From positions 1 to 36,289 of the forward strand of contig QZIJ01000017.1 in NCBI GenBank assembly GCA_003598975.1: a DNA stretch of 36,289 nt, written 5' to 3'. The stretch is from Anaerolineaceae bacterium (GTDB lineage Bacteria > Chloroflexota > Anaerolineae > Anaerolineales > Villigracilaceae). The position numbers were made by a program, and so were the translations under genes. Shown here in pieces: positions 27,575-35,775 of the stretch; positions within the stretch are counted from its first letter, which is position 1; every line of letters begins with the position of its first letter. The notes below the pieces were generated by a model. The model saw nothing but the letters and a program-made list of their open reading frames with translations, was not told the DNA's origin and ran no database searches.

Positions 27575-28438
27575 ATGAACAATCTTAGAAACTCCATTGT
27601 CTTTCTCCTTTTTTATACGATCCTGGTTTTTGGTATCGGGCAGGTGGGTTACATCGAGCAAAATATCTTGAATTTCGAACCAGTATTCTTTATTTTGCTC
27701 GCCTTGACAGCATTGATGGGAATTTTTATCCCGCTCATTACACATCTTTCGATCTATTTCTATCTTGCATTTTGGGCTGTCGTTTATGTGCTGATCTGGT
27801 GGTTCTATTGGCGGTTCCAACCGCATCCCTCTACTTTCCAGGTTCTAGGTATCCAGTTCATACTGGTGACAATTTCGGCGGGCTTGGGCTTTGATGTCGG
27901 CCAGCATCTGCGCGCCATGAATATGTTGTTCGAGGGTTTGTCGGCGACGACATATCCAAATCGCACCCTGGAAATTGAGCATGCCGAGGACCGTATCAGC
28001 GCGGAATTGACCCGCTCCCGAAGATATCATCATCCGCTATCCCTGCTGATCGTGCAACTCGAAAAAGACAAATTCAAATACAGGCGTGAAAATCTCGACG
28101 GGCTTCAGAAGGACCTGCTTCAGCGCTTTGCCACAGCCCGCGTCGGGCAGATCATCAGTGAGGGTGCGCGCGAAACGGACCTGCTTTTGCGGGATCGGAA
28201 TGGCCGTTTTGTATTGCTCTGCCCTGAAACCGACAACGAAAGTTCGATCATTTTTGGAGAGAGGATTCGCAATGCTGTGGCGGAACGAATGGATACGGAT
28301 GTGGTATGGAGTTCCGCCTCTTTCCCCGATGAGGCGTTAACATTCGAAGAACTAATCGAACGGGCAGAGCAACGGCTTGCCAGCCCGGATTTTGCGCCGG
28401 CTACTCAGGCCCTGATGCGCTCACAAAAGGTTGAATGA
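27575..28438 (+). CDS. Membrane protein with degenerate GGDEF domain
   Basis: 287 residues. Three or four hydrophobic helices occupy about 5-105. A GGDEF-like domain follows (about 133-280): SRRYHHPLSLLIVQLEKDKF matches the region of the first metal-binding Asp, but that Asp is Gln. The GGDEF signature is replaced by RNGRF (208-212). The inhibitory c-di-GMP site RxxD is present as RETD (199-202), at exactly the right spacing before it. It is therefore unlikely to synthesise c-di-GMP but could bind it. The frame is open back to 27215 through the HD-GYP gene; ATG 27575 starts the first helix and follows a -10 box directly. Confidence 0.82.
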   Translation: MNNLRNSIVFLLFYTILVFGIGQVGYIEQNILNFEPVFFILLALTALMGIFIPLITHLSIYFYLAFWAVVYVLIWWFYWRFQPHPSTFQVLGIQFILVTISAGLGFDVGQHLRAMNMLFEGLSATTYPNRTLEIEHAEDRISAELTRSRRYHHPLSLLIVQLEKDKFKYRRENLDGLQKDLLQRFATARVGQIISEGARETDLLLRDRNGRFVLLCPETDNESSIIFGERIRNAVAERMDTDVVWSSASFPDEALTFEELIERAEQRLASPDFAPATQALMRSQKVE

Positions 28439-28570: not shown

Positions 28571-29263
28571 ATGGAAACAAGCGTGAGAATGAGTCCAGTC
28601 ATGACTATTGATTATGCCTGGGTGAGGAAATTTGATCCCAAAAAACGGCTCCTGACGGGGCCTGCCTATCATTCTGTTAAAAGGGTGTTCGATCTGTTCA
28701 TTACCATACTCTCGGCCCCGGTGTGGATTCCGCTAATTGGCGTGATCGCCCTGATCATCAAAATCACCTCCCCGGGCGCCCCGGCGATTTTTGTGCAATA
28801 CCGAACCGGCAAGGGCGGCCAGCGTTTTCGGATGTATAAATTCCGTTCCATGGTTCCCAATGCCGAGGAACTCAAGGTTAAATATGCCCACCTGAACGAA
28901 CTAAAGTGGCCGGACTTCAAGATCACAAACGATCCGCGCATCACCCCGGTGGGACGGTTCCTGCGTAAAACCAGCCTGGATGAGATTCCGCAATTGTTCA
29001 ATGTCCTGCGCGGTGAAATGAGCCTGGTTGGGCCGCGTCCCACATCCTTTGGCCCGGATACCTACAAACTCTGGCATACCGAACGTTTGGATGTTGCGCC
29101 TGGATTGACCGGCCTTTGGCAGATCATTGGGCGGGCTTCCATGGAATTTGATGACCGTTTGCGCCTGGATATTGCCTACATCGAACGCCGCAGTATCTGG
29201 CTGGATACTAACATCCTCTTCCAAACTGTTTTTGCAGTATTCAAGCAACGCGGCGCGCATTAG
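28571..29263 (+). CDS. Initiating sugar transferase (polyprenyl-phosphate phosphoglycosyl transferase, small type)
   Basis: 230 residues, just the bacterial sugar transferase domain without the large N-terminal membrane region of WcaJ/WbaP. A hydrophobic re-entrant helix at about 38-62 is followed by MYKFRSMV, the catalytic Asp-Glu pair in KTSLDEIPQ, and SLVGPRP and PGLTGLWQI. It transfers a sugar phosphate from UDP-sugar to undecaprenyl phosphate, the first step in building the repeat unit. First gene of the polysaccharide cluster. Confidence 0.93.
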   Translation: METSVRMSPVMTIDYAWVRKFDPKKRLLTGPAYHSVKRVFDLFITILSAPVWIPLIGVIALIIKITSPGAPAIFVQYRTGKGGQRFRMYKFRSMVPNAEELKVKYAHLNELKWPDFKITNDPRITPVGRFLRKTSLDEIPQLFNVLRGEMSLVGPRPTSFGPDTYKLWHTERLDVAPGLTGLWQIIGRASMEFDDRLRLDIAYIERRSIWLDTNILFQTVFAVFKQRGAH

Positions 29264-29303: not shown

Positions 29304-30446
29304 ATGGAAATCCGACTTTATTTTCAAATGTTACAGCGTGGCTGGTGGGTCATTCTGCTGGCCGCATTGGTGTCGGTCTCAGTCTCGCTGGGATTGTCAT
29401 ACATGGCTGTTCCACAATACCAGGCGACGGCCAGTTTCATCATCACGCCCAGCGCGACCCTGACCGTTGGACGGGACGTTGTCAACAGCCTCGATACCCT
29501 GGACAGGCGTTCCATCGTTGCCACATTTGCAGAAGTAATGAACAGCCACCGCATTGTGAATACCGCGGCCGCTTCGGTGGGTTTGGATGAAAAGACCCTC
29601 GAGGATTACGAAGTCCTGGCCGTCGTTCTGCCTGAATCGAGCGTTCTGGAACTGGATGTTTCGGGGCCGGACCCGAAATTTGCCGCCGATTTGACAAATG
29701 CCATTGGCTCCGAAGCCATAAATTTCTCGCGCGGCTTCAACCAGGTATACGACCTGAATTTCCTGGATTACGCCGTTATGCCGGACCCGCAGAAACCCAT
29801 CAGTCCCCAACCGCTTCGGGACGCAGGGTTGGCACTTCTGTTGGGCGCCGCGGCCGGCGCGTTGCTGGTTGTGCTGAGCGAGCAGATTCGCATTCCGTTG
29901 GAATCCTATCGCCAGCGGGCGCGCATGGACAGCCTGACCGGCGTCTACAACGCTCGCTATTTCCGCACCATGCTGGAGGATGAACTGGCGCGTCGCCCGG
30001 ACGATGTATTATCAGTTGGCATTGTCGAACTTTATGGCCTGCACGATCTGCTGGAGACCGTTCCAGTGTCCGCGGCCCAGAGACTGCTTCGTACGATCAC
30101 TGATCGATTGCGAAAGGAGTTGCGTGGCAACGATGTGATCGGGCGCTGGAGCGAGACCAGCTTTATCGTCATGTTGCCTGCCACTGTGGGGTCCGCGGCG
30201 AACCGTACGTTTGACCGCATCTACCAGTCTCTGGTGCAATCCATCCCGCTTGAGGAATATGGTGTTACGGTCAATGCCGATCCACGTGTTGGCGGCTCGG
30301 TTTACAGCAACGACATCACCTCTACCGAATTGGTCGAACAGGCCGAGAGCGCCCTGGAGCAGGCCCGCAAGGATAATGCACACCCCATCTACGTTTGGGA
30401 GATGAAGAATCCATTCTGGGTGCGTAACGCTTCAGAGTCCGCATAG
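29304..30446 (+). CDS. Wzz-type chain-length/export protein fused to a degenerate GGDEF domain
   Basis: 380 residues. The N-terminal half is Wzz-like: helix 1 (about 14-36), a mainly extracytoplasmic domain starting VPQYQATASFIITPS, a Pro-rich stretch (PDPQKPISPQP) and helix 2 (about 172-192). In many relatives a BY-kinase domain follows. Here residues about 205-375 are a GGDEF fold: MDSLTGVYNARYF (208-220) is typical, but the metal-binding Asp residues are absent and the GGDEF motif is SETSF (283-287). RGND (274-277) keeps the RxxD inhibitory-site pattern in exact register. It is best read as a c-di-GMP receptor built into the polymerisation/export machinery. GGAGG seven nt upstream fixes ATG 29304. 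Confidence 0.85.
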   Translation: MEIRLYFQMLQRGWWVILLAALVSVSVSLGLSYMAVPQYQATASFIITPSATLTVGRDVVNSLDTLDRRSIVATFAEVMNSHRIVNTAAASVGLDEKTLEDYEVLAVVLPESSVLELDVSGPDPKFAADLTNAIGSEAINFSRGFNQVYDLNFLDYAVMPDPQKPISPQPLRDAGLALLLGAAAGALLVVLSEQIRIPLESYRQRARMDSLTGVYNARYFRTMLEDELARRPDDVLSVGIVELYGLHDLLETVPVSAAQRLLRTITDRLRKELRGNDVIGRWSETSFIVMLPATVGSAANRTFDRIYQSLVQSIPLEEYGVTVNADPRVGGSVYSNDITSTELVEQAESALEQARKDNAHPIYVWEMKNPFWVRNASESA

Positions 30447-30469: not shown

Positions 30470-30498
30470 CATGTCCGCCCTCTTTCGGGGCGGGCATG
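30470..30498. repeat. Intercistronic hairpin before the polymerase gene
   Basis: CATGTCCGCCC (30470-30480) and GGGCGGGCATG (30488-30498) pair over 11 positions with one G-T wobble around a 7-nt loop. It could stabilise the upstream message or tune expression of the polymerase. No T-tract follows. Confidence 0.55.
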
Positions 30499-30515
30499 CT
30501 GATTTTGGTGATGTG

Positions 30516-32012
30516 ATGAGCGCTCAACAACCTGTGATATCTGATACCGTCCCCAGGTCTGCCCGCAAGGTGGACTGGTTGGGCTTATTTATTGTTATTC
30601 TATCGGTGGCGTTGTCCGCATTGATTGCGGTGGCCGTTGACCAGTTGGGATTGATAGCCATACTGGTCGTGCCGGCCGCGCTGATGTTTCTTGGGGCCAT
30701 CGGGAAACCCGAGTTGGGGTTGGCGGGCCTGCTTATCATTACCTATACCCAGCTTTCCAATGTAGGCATCGTTCATTTTGGTTTGCCTTCGATTGCACAG
30801 CCCCTGGCTGGGTTGTTGATCGTTGTCATTCTGATCCGTATTGCGGTTTATGGCGAGCGTCCACTGGGATGGGTGCGGGCTGGGCTGTTTCTTTTGATCT
30901 ATACCGTTTCCTGGCTGATCTCCCTGTTACATGCCGATGATTCGCTGGCCGCCAATATCGCTTTCATCGGCTTCGCGAAAGACGCGCTGGGAATGTTGAT
31001 TGTGGTGTACTTCATCCAACATCATGGTTCCCTGCGCCGCGCCGTCTGGGCTTTGATTGCCGCGGGTCTTTTTATGGGCACTATCAGTGCCTTTCAGTAC
31101 CTGACCAGCGATTTCAACAACATCTATTGGGGATTTGGCGGCTGGGAGCAACAGGTAAGCGGGGCGGTGGAACGACACCGCCTGACCGGCCCGTACAGCA
31201 ATCCCAATGCCTATGCCCAGATATTGGTGGTATTGGCGCCCATCGCGCTGGATCGCATCTGGCATGAACGGAATATCTGGTTGCGTGTCCTCGCAGCCTG
31301 GGCGTTGACCGCCATTGTATTGACCATTTTCTTCACTTTCTCGCGTGGCGGCTTTCTCAGCCTGGTGTTTGGCGTGGCAATTTTGCTGACCCAGCGCCGC
31401 TTCAACTTCGTCCCTGTGATCATGACTTTCGTGGTTGGCCTGGGATTGATCCAATTCCTGCCTGCCTCCTATTCCGACCGCATCAACTCTCTTTTTCAGT
31501 TGGTCCCTTCCGAAAATGACCAGGTGGTAGACACATCATTCCGGGGGCGGTTGAGCGAAAATACGGCCGCCATGCGGATGTTCCAGGACAACCCGATTTT
31601 TGGGGTGGGGTTGGGAAACTATCGCACAAATTACCAGGATTACTCCCGCAACCTCGGCCTTGACCATCGGCGCGAACCTCGCTCCCCTGCCAGCCTCTAT
31701 CTGGAATTACTTGCCGAACAGGGAATTGTTGGCATAATGATTTTTGCCGCACTGATGATTTATGTGTTCCTTGGGCTGCTTCGGGCGCGCAGTCATTTTG
31801 TCCTGGCAGGATTGCGCGATGAAGCCTACATTACCGCGGCCATCTTCGCTGGGCTCGCGGCGTACATGTTCGAAGCCATTTTCAAAAATAGCGCGTATTC
31901 CAACGTTTTCTGGATTTTGGTTGGAGTAGCGCTGGCGGCGATTCAGGTGGCACAAACCAGTTTCGACGCGGCGTCTGTAGGAAAAGACTCCGTTTTGAGG
32001 CAGAAGGTGTGA
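30516..32012 (+). CDS. O-antigen ligase/polymerase family protein (Wzy-like)
   Basis: 498 residues with about 12 membrane helices. The Wzy_C/ligase signatures are in order: RHRLTGPYSNPNAYAQ and FSRGGFLSL near the middle, then a large extracytoplasmic loop and GVGLGNYRTNYQDYS with the conserved SPASLYLELLAEQG. It should polymerise lipid-linked repeat units (or ligate them) outside the membrane. ATG 30471 lies inside a hairpin, so ATG 30516 is preferred. Its stop overlaps the GTG start of the flippase. Placed after the chain-length protein, which is expected to be its partner. Confidence 0.88.
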   Translation: MSAQQPVISDTVPRSARKVDWLGLFIVILSVALSALIAVAVDQLGLIAILVVPAALMFLGAIGKPELGLAGLLIITYTQLSNVGIVHFGLPSIAQPLAGLLIVVILIRIAVYGERPLGWVRAGLFLLIYTVSWLISLLHADDSLAANIAFIGFAKDALGMLIVVYFIQHHGSLRRAVWALIAAGLFMGTISAFQYLTSDFNNIYWGFGGWEQQVSGAVERHRLTGPYSNPNAYAQILVVLAPIALDRIWHERNIWLRVLAAWALTAIVLTIFFTFSRGGFLSLVFGVAILLTQRRFNFVPVIMTFVVGLGLIQFLPASYSDRINSLFQLVPSENDQVVDTSFRGRLSENTAAMRMFQDNPIFGVGLGNYRTNYQDYSRNLGLDHRREPRSPASLYLELLAEQGIVGIMIFAALMIYVFLGLLRARSHFVLAGLRDEAYITAAIFAGLAAYMFEAIFKNSAYSNVFWILVGVALAAIQVAQTSFDAASVGKDSVLRQKV

Positions 32013-33502
32013 GTTCAGCCACTCGTCGTCCCGATTTTGCAAGGGTGGCCATCCACGGCACAGCCTGGCGTTACTTGACTTTCTTTGGCGGCAAATTGAT
32101 GGTCTTCATCAGCACCATCGTTTTAGCGCGTCTGCTTGCCAAAGATGATTTCGGGCTGGTGGGTTATGCCATCACCACCATCAGTTTTCTGGACGTGGTC
32201 AGCGATTTCGGAATCGGCGCGGCGCTGGTTTACTATCCCGACGATAAACGCCGCGCCAGTACCGCCTTCTGGTTGAATCTCACCGTTCGAACCCTGCTCT
32301 TCGCGGCCAGTTGGTTCCTCGCTCCGCTCGCGGGTATTTATTTCCGCGATGAGCGCGTCGTGGCTGTGACGCGCGCCCTGGCGCTCACCTTTCCCATCGA
32401 CGCGCTCGGCGACATCCATGGCTGGATGCTGCGGAAGCGCCTCGAATTCAGCCGCACCGTCATCCCCGACTTTTTGTCTGCGGTCACCAAGGGACTGGCC
32501 TCCATCATCTTTGCCGCGCTGGGCTTTGGCGCATGGAGCCTCGTTTGGGGACAGATTGCCGGCGCAATGGCATCCTCCATTGTCATGTGGTTCATCACAC
32601 CGTGGAACCCGTCCTTTGAATTCGATTTCGGCATGGCGAAGGGATTGCTTTCCTATGGCGTTCACATTGTCGGCGTGGCCTTCCTCGCCATGCTCCTCCA
32701 AAACCTGGACTACCTACTAGTGGGGCGTTATCTCGGTGCGGAGGCCCTGGGTGTGTACACTCTCGCCTATCGTCTGCCCGATCTGGTCGTCCTCCAGTTT
32801 GCGCGCATCCTCAGCACCGTCCTCTTCCCGCTCTACACGCGCATGCGGGACATCCCTGGCAGTCTCGCGCGGGGATTCTATCTAACCACGCGCTACGTTT
32901 CGCTCGTCACTCTCCCGCTTGGCATTGGCCTTGCGCTGGTCGCGGAACCGTTCACCCTGGTGGTCTTCACTGATAAATGGCAGGAGGCTGTCCCTGTTCT
33001 GCAATCGCTCGCCATCTACTCGATGCTTCTCTCGCTGGCTTATAACGCAGGGAGTGCATATAAGGCCGAGGGCCGCCCACAGGTGCTGACGTGGCTGGGA
33101 TTCGTCCGCCTCGTCATGCTCTTCCCCGCGCTCTGGTGGGCGGTGACAACCGCGCATTCCATCGTGATGGTGGGTTGGATGCAGGCGCTCGTGGCCCTCA
33201 TCGGCGGGATCATCAATCTGTTCGCAGCCGCACGCCTGCTTGGTCTGCCCCTGCGCGAACTGGGCGACGCGATTTTCCCGTCCGTGATGGCCACTGCATT
33301 TATGGTCGCGGCCACTCTCGGCGTCCTGGCCTTGACCGCCTCCATGTCCCCGATCTGGCAACTCATCCTCGGTGTTCTGGCTGGCGGCATCGCCTACATT
33401 GGTTCGCTGTTGTTATTCAAACGCAGCATGATCGTCTCTCTCGTCAAAAATTTGCGCTCGTCCCTGCTCAGAGGTTCGGATGCGAATCGCGCAAATGCTT
33501 GA
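32009..33502 (+). CDS. Polysaccharide flippase (Wzx/MOP family), GTG start
   Basis: 497 residues, 12 to 14 membrane helices, MOP/PST exporter fold. GTAWRYLTFFGGKL and VLARLLAKDDFGLVGYA at the N-terminus are typical of the lipopolysaccharide-repeat flippase family. The middle QNLDYLLVGRYLGAEALGVY is its hallmark repeat. It should flip lipid-linked repeat units across the membrane. The GTG start overlaps the upstream stop (GTGA), indicating coupled translation. Confidence 0.9.
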   Translation: MSSATRRPDFARVAIHGTAWRYLTFFGGKLMVFISTIVLARLLAKDDFGLVGYAITTISFLDVVSDFGIGAALVYYPDDKRRASTAFWLNLTVRTLLFAASWFLAPLAGIYFRDERVVAVTRALALTFPIDALGDIHGWMLRKRLEFSRTVIPDFLSAVTKGLASIIFAALGFGAWSLVWGQIAGAMASSIVMWFITPWNPSFEFDFGMAKGLLSYGVHIVGVAFLAMLLQNLDYLLVGRYLGAEALGVYTLAYRLPDLVVLQFARILSTVLFPLYTRMRDIPGSLARGFYLTTRYVSLVTLPLGIGLALVAEPFTLVVFTDKWQEAVPVLQSLAIYSMLLSLAYNAGSAYKAEGRPQVLTWLGFVRLVMLFPALWWAVTTAHSIVMVGWMQALVALIGGIINLFAAARLLGLPLRELGDAIFPSVMATAFMVAATLGVLALTASMSPIWQLILGVLAGGIAYIGSLLLFKRSMIVSLVKNLRSSLLRGSDANRANA

Positions 33503-34640
33503 TACGCTCAACTGGGGCGGCGCGCAGAAGATGCAACTCTTCCTCGTCCAGTCGCTTTGTCCGCTGGGCGTGGATGTCACTGTCATCAGCCTGAACCGCT
33601 CGCTCAACTCACCGCTCCCCGCGCAACTTGAGGCGGCTGGTGCGCGCGTCGTGGTTTTCCCCTTCCCGAAACTTTTCAACCTGATTTCCTTCTTCAAGTT
33701 GGCTGGATTTTTGCATCGCGAACGATTCGACCTGGTTCACGGCTACCTGACCTACAGTAACATTCTCGGTTCACTCGCGGGACGTTTGAGCGGGACGCGG
33801 TTTTCTGGATCGTTCCGCAACGCTGGATACGACTCGGGGCGCATCAGCGCCCGCCGCGCCAAAATCGAATCGTTCTGTCTGCGCCATTTTGCGGACGGCA
33901 TCCTCGCCAACGGGTACGCCGTCGCGGAATTTGGACATCGGCAGGTCGGCGCGGATATTTCGATTGATGTGCTTCCCAACGCGGTGGACATGAACATCAT
34001 CCCGCAACTTTCCCGCGAAGAAAAACAATCCCTGCGCCGCGAACTTGTCGGCAACGCGGATCGGCCGCTGATTCTCTCCGTCGGACGGCTGACTCCCCAA
34101 AAGGGATTCGATCATCTCCTGCAAGCCTTCGCGCTTGTACGCAAAAAACATTCCAATGCCGCGCTCGCCATCGCGGGGGCGGGCCGCCAGCGCGAGGTGC
34201 TCGAAGCGCAGGTACGCGCCCTCGGTCTTGATGGACATGCCTTCCTGCTCGGTCAGCGCGATGACGCGCCGAGTTTGTTGGCCGTTGCCGATGTTTACGT
34301 CAACTCATCCCTGCTCGAAGGCACGCCTGTTTCCGTGCTCGAAGCCATGGCCGCGGGACTTCCCATCGTAGCAACCAGTGTCGGCGATACGCCGTACCTG
34401 TTGGAATCCGACGCGGGAATTCTTGTCCCGCCCGCCCAGCCAGAAAAAATGGCCGAAGCGTTAATCGAATTGCTTACCAATTCGGCACAACGCGATGCAC
34501 TGGGGAAATCTGCGAAGGCGCGTGCCCAGGAAAAATATAGCCCGCGAGTGTGGACGCGTAACCTGCTGACGTACTATGCCAAATTTACACCGACCGCGCA
34601 GGAACATTTAAAAAAACTCGACGAGGTGACACATGCCTGA
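33480..34640 (+). CDS. Glycosyltransferase, GT4-like (GT-B fold)
   Basis: 386 residues. The N-terminal Rossmann half starts MRIAQMLDTLNWGGAQKMQ with the usual GGA loop. The C-terminal half has ILSVGRLTPQKGFDHLLQAF and SSLLEGTPVSVLEAMAAG, the nucleotide-sugar EX7E motif. It adds a sugar to the growing repeat unit on the cytoplasmic side; donor and linkage are unknown. It overlaps the flippase by 23 nt and the next gene by 8 nt, so it is part of one tight operon. Confidence 0.9.
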   Translation: MRIAQMLDTLNWGGAQKMQLFLVQSLCPLGVDVTVISLNRSLNSPLPAQLEAAGARVVVFPFPKLFNLISFFKLAGFLHRERFDLVHGYLTYSNILGSLAGRLSGTRFSGSFRNAGYDSGRISARRAKIESFCLRHFADGILANGYAVAEFGHRQVGADISIDVLPNAVDMNIIPQLSREEKQSLRRELVGNADRPLILSVGRLTPQKGFDHLLQAFALVRKKHSNAALAIAGAGRQREVLEAQVRALGLDGHAFLLGQRDDAPSLLAVADVYVNSSLLEGTPVSVLEAMAAGLPIVATSVGDTPYLLESDAGILVPPAQPEKMAEALIELLTNSAQRDALGKSAKARAQEKYSPRVWTRNLLTYYAKFTPTAQEHLKKLDEVTHA

Positions 34641-35775
34641 TGGCGTGATTCACCTCATCAATGAATTTCCTCCCCTGTCCGTCGGTGGGGCGGAGCGGCA
34701 GGCCGAGCGGCTTTCGGGATGGCTGGCGGCGCGCGGCTGGAAAATCTCCGTGCTGACGCGCGGCGCGGCGAGCCTGCCCTCGCGCGAAATGCGGGATGGC
34801 TTCGAGATTTTGCGGATTCGCCCACGTGGGCCTGGCAAACTGAAATCGCTCACCTTCGTCTTCGGCGCGCTGTGGACTCTATTTCATCGACGAAATGAAT
34901 ATAGAATCTTGCATGCCCATTTATCGTTTGGTCCCGCGTTCGCGGCGGTGATCGCGGCGCGGTTGTTGGGGAAGCGTGTCATCGTCAAACTCGGCAACAG
35001 CGGAGAGTTCGGCGACATTCGCGTCTCACAGAAGACCCTGCGTGGACGCGTGCGCCTGTTTGCCCTGCGCCGCTGGGCGGACGCAGTCATCGCGCTTGAT
35101 GAAGCCATGAAGGCAGAAGCACTTGCAGCAGGTTTCGACCCGCGCCGTCTGCGCCGAATGAACAACGGCATTGAGTTCGCGTCTTTCTCTTTCAGCCGTA
35201 CAAAAGACGAAGCGAAGTCTTCATTGGGTCTGGATGGAAAAGTGATTGTGATGTTCATGGGCAGGCTTTCCGAACAAAAATCTCTGCCTACTTTGTTGAA
35301 TGCTTTTGACGCAGCACGAAAAAAATGTCCCGCGCTGCACTTGCTTCTGCTTGGGGATGGTCCCTCCCGCCGAGACTTGGAATTTCAAGCGGAGAATCTG
35401 GGCATCAATGCCAATGTCACGTTTGCAGGCACGCAGCGTGACGTGCATCCGTATCTCGAGGCCGCGGATGTATTCGCGCTTCCGTCTGTTTCGGAGGGAA
35501 TCTCGAACGCGTTGCTTGAAGCCATGTCCGCGGGGCTGGCGTGTGTCGCGACGCCCGTCGGCGGGAACGCGGAAGTGCTGGACGCGGGCGCGTGCGGAGT
35601 CCTGCTCCCGCCGCGCGACGAATCCGCATGGGGCGCGGCGCTGGCGGAGTTGGGGAACGACTCCCAGCGACGCGAACGCCTCGGAGCCGCGGCCCGCCAA
35701 AGGGTCCGCGCGCGATACGATTTCTCCGTCGTGGGCAGTCAATATGAATCCCTTTACCGCGAGTTGACGCGATGA
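34633..35775 (+). CDS. Glycosyltransferase, GT4-like (GT-B fold)
   Basis: 380 residues with the same two-lobed layout as its neighbours. FPPLSVGGAERQAERL begins the acceptor lobe. VMFMGRLSEQKSLPTLLNAF opens the donor lobe, and PSVSEGISNALLEAMSAG carries EX7E. It starts 8 nt before the previous stop and ends with an ATGA overlap into the next gene. Specificity unknown. Its GC-rich third positions match the rest of the cluster. Confidence 0.9.
   Translation: MPDGVIHLINEFPPLSVGGAERQAERLSGWLAARGWKISVLTRGAASLPSREMRDGFEILRIRPRGPGKLKSLTFVFGALWTLFHRRNEYRILHAHLSFGPAFAAVIAARLLGKRVIVKLGNSGEFGDIRVSQKTLRGRVRLFALRRWADAVIALDEAMKAEALAAGFDPRRLRRMNNGIEFASFSFSRTKDEAKSSLGLDGKVIVMFMGRLSEQKSLPTLLNAFDAARKKCPALHLLLLGDGPSRRDLEFQAENLGINANVTFAGTQRDVHPYLEAADVFALPSVSEGISNALLEAMSAGLACVATPVGGNAEVLDAGACGVLLPPRDESAWGAALAELGNDSQRRERLGAAARQRVRARYDFSVVGSQYESLYRELTR

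Follow-up and report, generated by a model that had tools for sequence, protein, structure and literature searches.

A Wzz-type co-polymerase fused to a degenerate GGDEF domain in Chloroflexota Wzx/Wzy loci, a candidate c-di-GMP receptor

Gene content and recurrence of the locus

The window analysed here is one entire contig of a draft assembly (QZIJ01000017.1 of GCA_003598975.1; 36,289 nucleotides) from an Anaerolineaceae bacterium, and its forward strand carries, in this order, genes for an HD-GYP protein, P0002, a sugar-phosphate transferase, WzzG, Wzy, Wzx and two GT4 glycosyltransferases. The HD-GYP protein, P0003 (25003 to 27567, start codon uncertain), holds three GAF stretches and an HD-GYP domain in which both the HD and the HHEKWDGSGYP motif are intact, and is a probable c-di-GMP phosphodiesterase. 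Seven bases beyond its end begins P0002 (27575 to 28438), a protein of 287 residues with four N-terminal membrane helices (residues 2-27, 36-55, 60-81 and 88-124) and a catalytically dead GGDEF domain, which an earlier sequence-only reading of this DNA had not mentioned. The sugar-phosphate transferase (28571 to 29263; Bac_transf, PF02397, E 1.2e-63) is the initiating enzyme. It is followed by WzzG (29304 to 30446), a Wzz-GGDEF fusion of 380 residues counted from its ATG start; an alternative, longer TTG-start form would overlap the preceding gene. Downstream lie a polymerase of the Wzy-type/O-antigen ligase family (30471 to 32012; PF04932), a Wzx-type flippase (32009 to 33502; PF13440) and the two GT4 glycosyltransferases (33480 to 34640 and 34633 to 35775; both PF00534). 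A scan for promoters and terminators returned counts close to those of shuffled sequences.

This arrangement recurs. By counting listed ORFs, from which unmatched ORFs under 200 or 250 aa were excluded, we found the transferase to be the next ORF after a separate P0002 in 32 of 33 loci, with an intervening gene in the remaining one (L077). WzzG with Wzy and Wzx lies downstream of the P0002-transferase pair in many loci, those of a second lineage included, and the run from P0002 to GT4 is found again, in varied form, also outside the window's class, in genomes of 6-7 Mb (L184-L188, L193 and L194). In eleven loci a BcsB-like gene stands directly 3' of WzzG, and Pfam agreed (PF03170) in all four that were checked (L059:9878-12172, L061:5961-8381, L068:6578-8878 and L080:10338-13142); no cellulose synthase was found among the few neighbours scanned at the BcsB-bearing loci.

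The fusion itself is widespread. Full-length, in-frame copies occur in at least 29 of 396 Anaerolineae genomes, two more genomes having pieces at contig ends, and in at least 20 of 400 Chloroflexota genomes, in part the same ones; both counts are lower bounds, because no more than four candidates were scored in any one genome. A scan of close relatives found 11 loci that carry the fusion at 43-89% identity. The search for the Wzz plus GGDEF architecture across Chloroflexota, which had been proposed as a check, returned matches in Anaerolineae and in a second lineage, so that the fusion is present in at least two Chloroflexota lineages. That it might be a sequencing artefact absent from relatives, an assembly error or a frameshift, had also been raised; with 40 distinct full-length fusions available for comparison (WzzG included), the existence of full-length homologues in these genomes and loci refutes this explanation, the probability of which we regard as negligible.

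Some relatives have a shorter protein. Ten distinct homologues, one of which ends at a contig edge, lack the GGDEF domain, and so do L190-L192; L094, which ends at a contig edge, was scored as short. One homologue is broken by two in-frame stops (L098:9601-10308), in a genome (G278) that is 96% complete.

Domain architecture and lost active site of WzzG

The N-terminal half of WzzG is of the Wzz type. Pfam places a Wzz domain at residues 6-88 (E 7.8e-8, 33 bits vs a cut-off of 25.5), and two hydrophobic spans in the Kyte-Doolittle profile mark the membrane helices, of which the first covers residues 12-37 (29337 to 29414; helix 14-34 in the AF2 model) and the second residues 171-197 (29814 to 29894), also seen in the AF2 model. 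A second membrane helix rich in proline and glycine is a mark of Wzz-type co-polymerases, and in WzzG P165, P168 and P170 precede this helix while G181 and G185 lie inside it, all five being invariant in the 24 closest relatives (a core set chosen by us from the BLAST ranking). Together with the Wzx and Wzy genes beside it, the domain above its cut-off and the two helices identify WzzG as a Wzz-type co-polymerase. The model TIGR01006 also matches, with an E value of 1.7e-8, yet its 34.2 bits stand against a cut-off of 296.

The C-terminal half is a degenerate GGDEF domain (residues 206-358, 29919 to 30377), recognised by Pfam (PF00990) at E 1.2e-16 and 61.4 bits against a cut-off of 23.8. Both parts of the two-domain description given in the sequence-only reading are therefore borne out by Pfam matches over their cut-offs, and in the 33 aligned homologues the Wzz match was found in all 33 at E <= 0.001 and the GGDEF match in 32. 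In the AF2 model (a monomer built on 33 sequences, with mean pLDDT 84.7 and pTM 0.50), a single helix spanning residues 170-207 joins the membrane part to the GGDEF domain. Searching with this model, Foldseek returned c-di-GMP-bound GGDEF structures at target-normalised TM scores of 0.83 (3ign), 0.82-0.83 (6ttr) and 0.84 (4zmm); no PelD structure was among the best 50 matches, and Pfam found no GAF domain in WzzG or P0002.

The active site of this domain has been lost. The segment DSLTGVYNARYF begins at D209, where the sequence-only reading had seen it, and at the position of the GG[DE]EF signature we read SETSF, as had been reported (residues 283-287, 30150 to 30164), of which the F is the sole retained residue. 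The columns of the metal-site Asp, the guanine-site Asn and the signature Glu are occupied by E242, L250 and S286, respectively, while they are D, N and E in all 27 intact-GG[DE]EF cyclases that served for comparison. The latter were drawn from the window's own genome and from related genomes at the level of genus, family and order, the intact-motif filter having dropped 12 of 40 GGDEF loci (at least one intact domain, L011, among them) and a duplicate having been removed. The earlier statement that the metal-binding Asp residues are gone is correct, one of them having become Glu. None of the 40 distinct full-length fusions retains GG[DE]EF, and among the 24 closest relatives the signature columns G, G, D/E and E rank 128th, 101st, 161st and 40th in conservation out of 175. 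The F of the signature is present in 23 of these 24 and a Ser at the Glu column in 19; since S286 is fairly conserved, the signature loop may have another role.

It could be argued that, even with its altered signature, the domain still works as a diguanylate cyclase, because some proteins with degenerate motifs are active, as reported for the AGDEF protein VCA0965 (PMC3974145). In WzzG, however, both Gly residues and the metal-site, guanine-site and signature Glu columns are all replaced, so that neither GG[DE]EF nor the metal and guanine residues of an active cyclase were found, and the motif is missing from all 40 full-length fusions compared; we consider residual cyclase activity very improbable.

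I-site residues and what their retention means

WzzG carries the primary I-site motif RGND (R274-D277, 30123 to 30134), whose Arg lies nine residues ahead of where the signature begins; this is the inhibitory-site spacing that the sequence-only reading had pointed out. R274 and D277 are present in all 24 closest relatives, and RxxD is present in 34 of the 40 distinct full-length fusions, the set on which all I-site counts were made after exclusion of short homologues and duplicates. The exceptions are four loci whose R274 is replaced by P (L044-L047), one in which the motif is lost (L049) and one with H for R (L087). There are only ten invariant positions in residues 206-380 of the 24 closest relatives, and R274, G275, D277 and R281 are among them. 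A further residue, R305 (30216 to 30218), occupies the position of the secondary I-site Arg and is the counterpart of PleD R390; it is Arg in 23 of the 24 closest relatives, in 28 of 40 fusions overall and in 12 of 27 intact cyclases. R305 did not figure in the earlier description of WzzG.

RxxD by itself is ancestral and weak evidence, because it is also carried by 25 of the 27 intact cyclases, and we rejected its retention as sufficient proof of a receptor on the same ground. The other imperfect GGDEF domains of the window's own genome were tried as a control and set aside as not clean. Judged by eye, seven of them lack an exact GG[DE]EF; RxxD is present in the three with near-intact signatures (GGDEL in L005, GGDEM in L009 and SGDEF in L010) and in one of the four others, and it is absent from three. 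When all three residues are taken together, R, D and the third Arg coincide in 23 of 40 fusions vs 11 of 27 intact cyclases, which confines the strong three-residue pattern to the closest 24. The argument for a receptor thus rests on RxxD together with R305, both of which close relatives have retained after the loss of the catalytic motif.

The same counts bear on a different explanation, in which what is left of the GGDEF domain binds no ligand and serves for dimerisation or docking, tying the co-polymerase ring to some other protein, and RxxD is ancestral or structural. It would account for the presence of RxxD in nearly all intact cyclases and in four of the genome's seven other imperfect GGDEF domains, for the structural look of D277 and R281 (kept in 39 and 34 of the 40 fusions, respectively), and for the loss of the Arg or of the entire GGDEF domain in some lineages. 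It sits less well with the close relatives, where R274 and D277 belong to the few invariant positions while three signature positions drift, and where R305 is nearly universal although fewer than half of the intact cyclases have it. We therefore regard a purely structural remnant as unlikely.

Of the known systems that WzzG resembles, one is PelD of Pseudomonas aeruginosa and Bacillus cereus, which likewise has a dead GGDEF domain with RxxD and a third Arg and belongs to an exopolysaccharide gene set. R274, D277 and R305 of WzzG correspond to R367, D370 and R402 of PelD, and the Asp and the third Arg stand 28 residues apart in WzzG vs 32 and 29 in two PelDs. The two differ in build and setting, PelD having a GAF domain before its GGDEF domain and serving the Pel machinery, whereas WzzG has a Wzz-type half and lies in a Wzx/Wzy locus. 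PleD and other I-site-inhibited cyclases share with WzzG the GGDEF fold, the I-site residues and their spacing; PleD, however, has a receiver as its input domain, whereas WzzG is a membrane co-polymerase whose active-site motif is lost. In the B. cereus PelD, Ala at each of the three I-site residues is reported to abolish detectable c-di-GMP binding (PMC7112168).

WzzG combines the features of a degenerate-GGDEF receptor at the sequence level, namely the fold, a lost catalytic motif, RxxD and a third Arg. The earlier proposal of a c-di-GMP receptor holds to that extent, the three residues required in PelD being kept and the catalytic motif gone. From these features, we think it probable that the GGDEF domain of WzzG binds c-di-GMP.

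Two putative inputs to the Wzx/Wzy pathway

P0002 resembles WzzG in its cytoplasmic part. It carries the I-site motif RETD (R199-D202, 28169 to 28180), with RxxD in 20 of 23 homologues, its signature position reads RNGRF, and at the third-Arg position stands R230 (28262 to 28264; R in 12 of 23 homologues), which we take to be the counterpart of PleD R390. In build, it is likened to YdaK, the receptor of the ydaJKLMN exopolysaccharide operon: P0002 has 287 residues, four helices of which the last ends at residue 124, and R199, while for the B. subtilis protein 283 residues, four helices, a soluble construct from residue 112 and the I-site Arg R202 are reported (PMC7064775). Unlike YdaK, P0002 belongs to a Wzx/Wzy locus, where its neighbour is the sugar-phosphate transferase. 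In two sister genomes, the P0002-like part is even fused to the transferase (L081:5863-7554, 563 aa; L082:6033-7730, 565 aa). Pfam assigns Bac_transf to the L081 fusion at E 2.1e-63 and GGDEF, under the cut-off, at E 0.0027, and in its RxxD motif Y replaces R. These fused genes suggest that P0002 acts on initiation, which would make initiation a second control point.

The likeness to YdaK also admits a reading in which the I-site chiefly recruits a partner diguanylate cyclase, WzzG and P0002 being scaffolds for a local cyclase. The interaction of YdaK with DgcK is reported to depend on the I-site residue R202 (PMC7064775), P0002 is close to YdaK in size, helix number and Arg position, and the window's genome, with 17 GGDEF matches, eleven of them above 120 bits, offers candidate partners. 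No third GGDEF gene, however, was found among the ORFs of the examined neighbourhoods, and recruitment is compatible with ligand binding and does not exclude it; as the chief function of the I-site, we hold it to be quite improbable.

We compared the fate of the motif in the two putative receptors. In the tree of Wzz halves, from which the duplicate L028 and the disrupted L098 had been removed, the presence and absence of RxxD requires at least seven changes, four of which are forced by well-supported branches. Among 35 loci with both genes, RxxD is present in both proteins in 15, in P0002 only in 15, in WzzG only in five and in neither in none, a pattern with a Fisher p of 0.048 one-sided and 0.057 two-sided, calculated on loci that are related to one another. 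A tree-aware pair test of RxxD loss in WzzG and P0002 was not significant. That no locus has lost both motifs is a hint, and would fit if every locus must keep one sensor or more.

The sequence-only reading had further proposed that c-di-GMP replaces tyrosine-kinase control. WzzG resembles the PCP-2b and PCP-2a proteins (CpsC-CpsD and Wzc) in its two-helix half, in its Pro/Gly-rich second helix and in adjoining Wzy and Wzx, but the cytoplasmic partner of PCP-2 proteins is a BY-kinase, whereas that of WzzG is a GGDEF-fold domain. A BY-kinase query matched none of 52 neighbourhood sources (of unequal flank lengths, and with one contig present twice), compared with 30 of 30 positive-control loci. 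Locally, at the fusion locus, the proposal is thus supported by the gene content, which is consistent with replacement of the BY-kinase there. It does not stand for the genome as a whole, and we rejected genome-wide replacement, because away from the fusion locus TIGR01007 exceeds its cut-off in 23 of 29 fusion-bearing genomes, the window's own included. Such a match occurs in 33 of 39 genomes overall; the six without one (G345, G179, G314, G061, G234 and G355), of which four reach 95% completeness or more, are all fusion-bearing.

In the window's own genome, the TIGR01007 match lies on a different contig (L196:5228-6721); it is a 497-aa ORF that combines Wzz with a kinase-like part and exceeds the cut-off by 0.15 bit. 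Read by eye, the GEGKST of the kinase query is GQGAST in this ORF. It thus lacks the Walker-A lysine and may be inactive, perhaps a pseudokinase co-polymerase.

From the gene context of WzzG, we infer that c-di-GMP would control chain length or export, and perhaps the initiation of the Wzx/Wzy pathway as well. Wzz proteins form co-polymerase rings, and in PleD-type structures a c-di-GMP dimer bridges two GGDEF domains. In the mechanism we propose, the WzzG domain would no longer make c-di-GMP and would instead bind it at the I-site formed by R274, D277 and R305, where the ligand would probably cross-link neighbouring GGDEF domains within the ring. Since helix 2 runs on without a break into the GGDEF domain, ligand binding would act on the membrane helices or on how the ring assembles, and the changed ring or helices might then alter chain extension or release by the adjacent Wzy. 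P0002 would be a second c-di-GMP input, acting at the initiating sugar-phosphate transferase. Taken as a whole, WzzG as a co-polymerase whose dead-cyclase domain serves as a c-di-GMP receptor controlling Wzx/Wzy output is an account we moderately favour. The broader idea of a Wzx/Wzy pathway in Chloroflexota gated by two receptors, with clustering of dead GGDEF domains, driven by the ligand, doing the job that phosphorylation by a BY-kinase does elsewhere, is more tentative, and we hold it at somewhat short of even odds.

The receptor chemistry proposed here is known, and its place is new: the architecture is conserved, and we found no earlier description of it, no report of a Wzz-GGDEF fusion having been found by title or abstract opening in the open-licence literature, where a single paper mentions Anaerolineae, c-di-GMP and polysaccharide together. 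How c-di-GMP controls synthase-dependent polysaccharides is understood in detail, unlike its part in the Wzx/Wzy pathway. In the available portion of a review (PMC12220298), tyrosine-kinase partners are described for PCP-2 proteins and c-di-GMP appears only with synthase systems, and a 2025 paper, in the part available, calls the post-translational control of Wzx/Wzy incompletely understood (PMC12802240).

Chloroflexota are common in biofilms and sludge. Our comparisons of sequence and gene order suggest that in the WzzG-bearing bacteria the messenger may directly control the building of the slime coat. If this is true, it would constitute a direct link from c-di-GMP to the Wzx/Wzy machine, and an alternative to control by BY-kinases.
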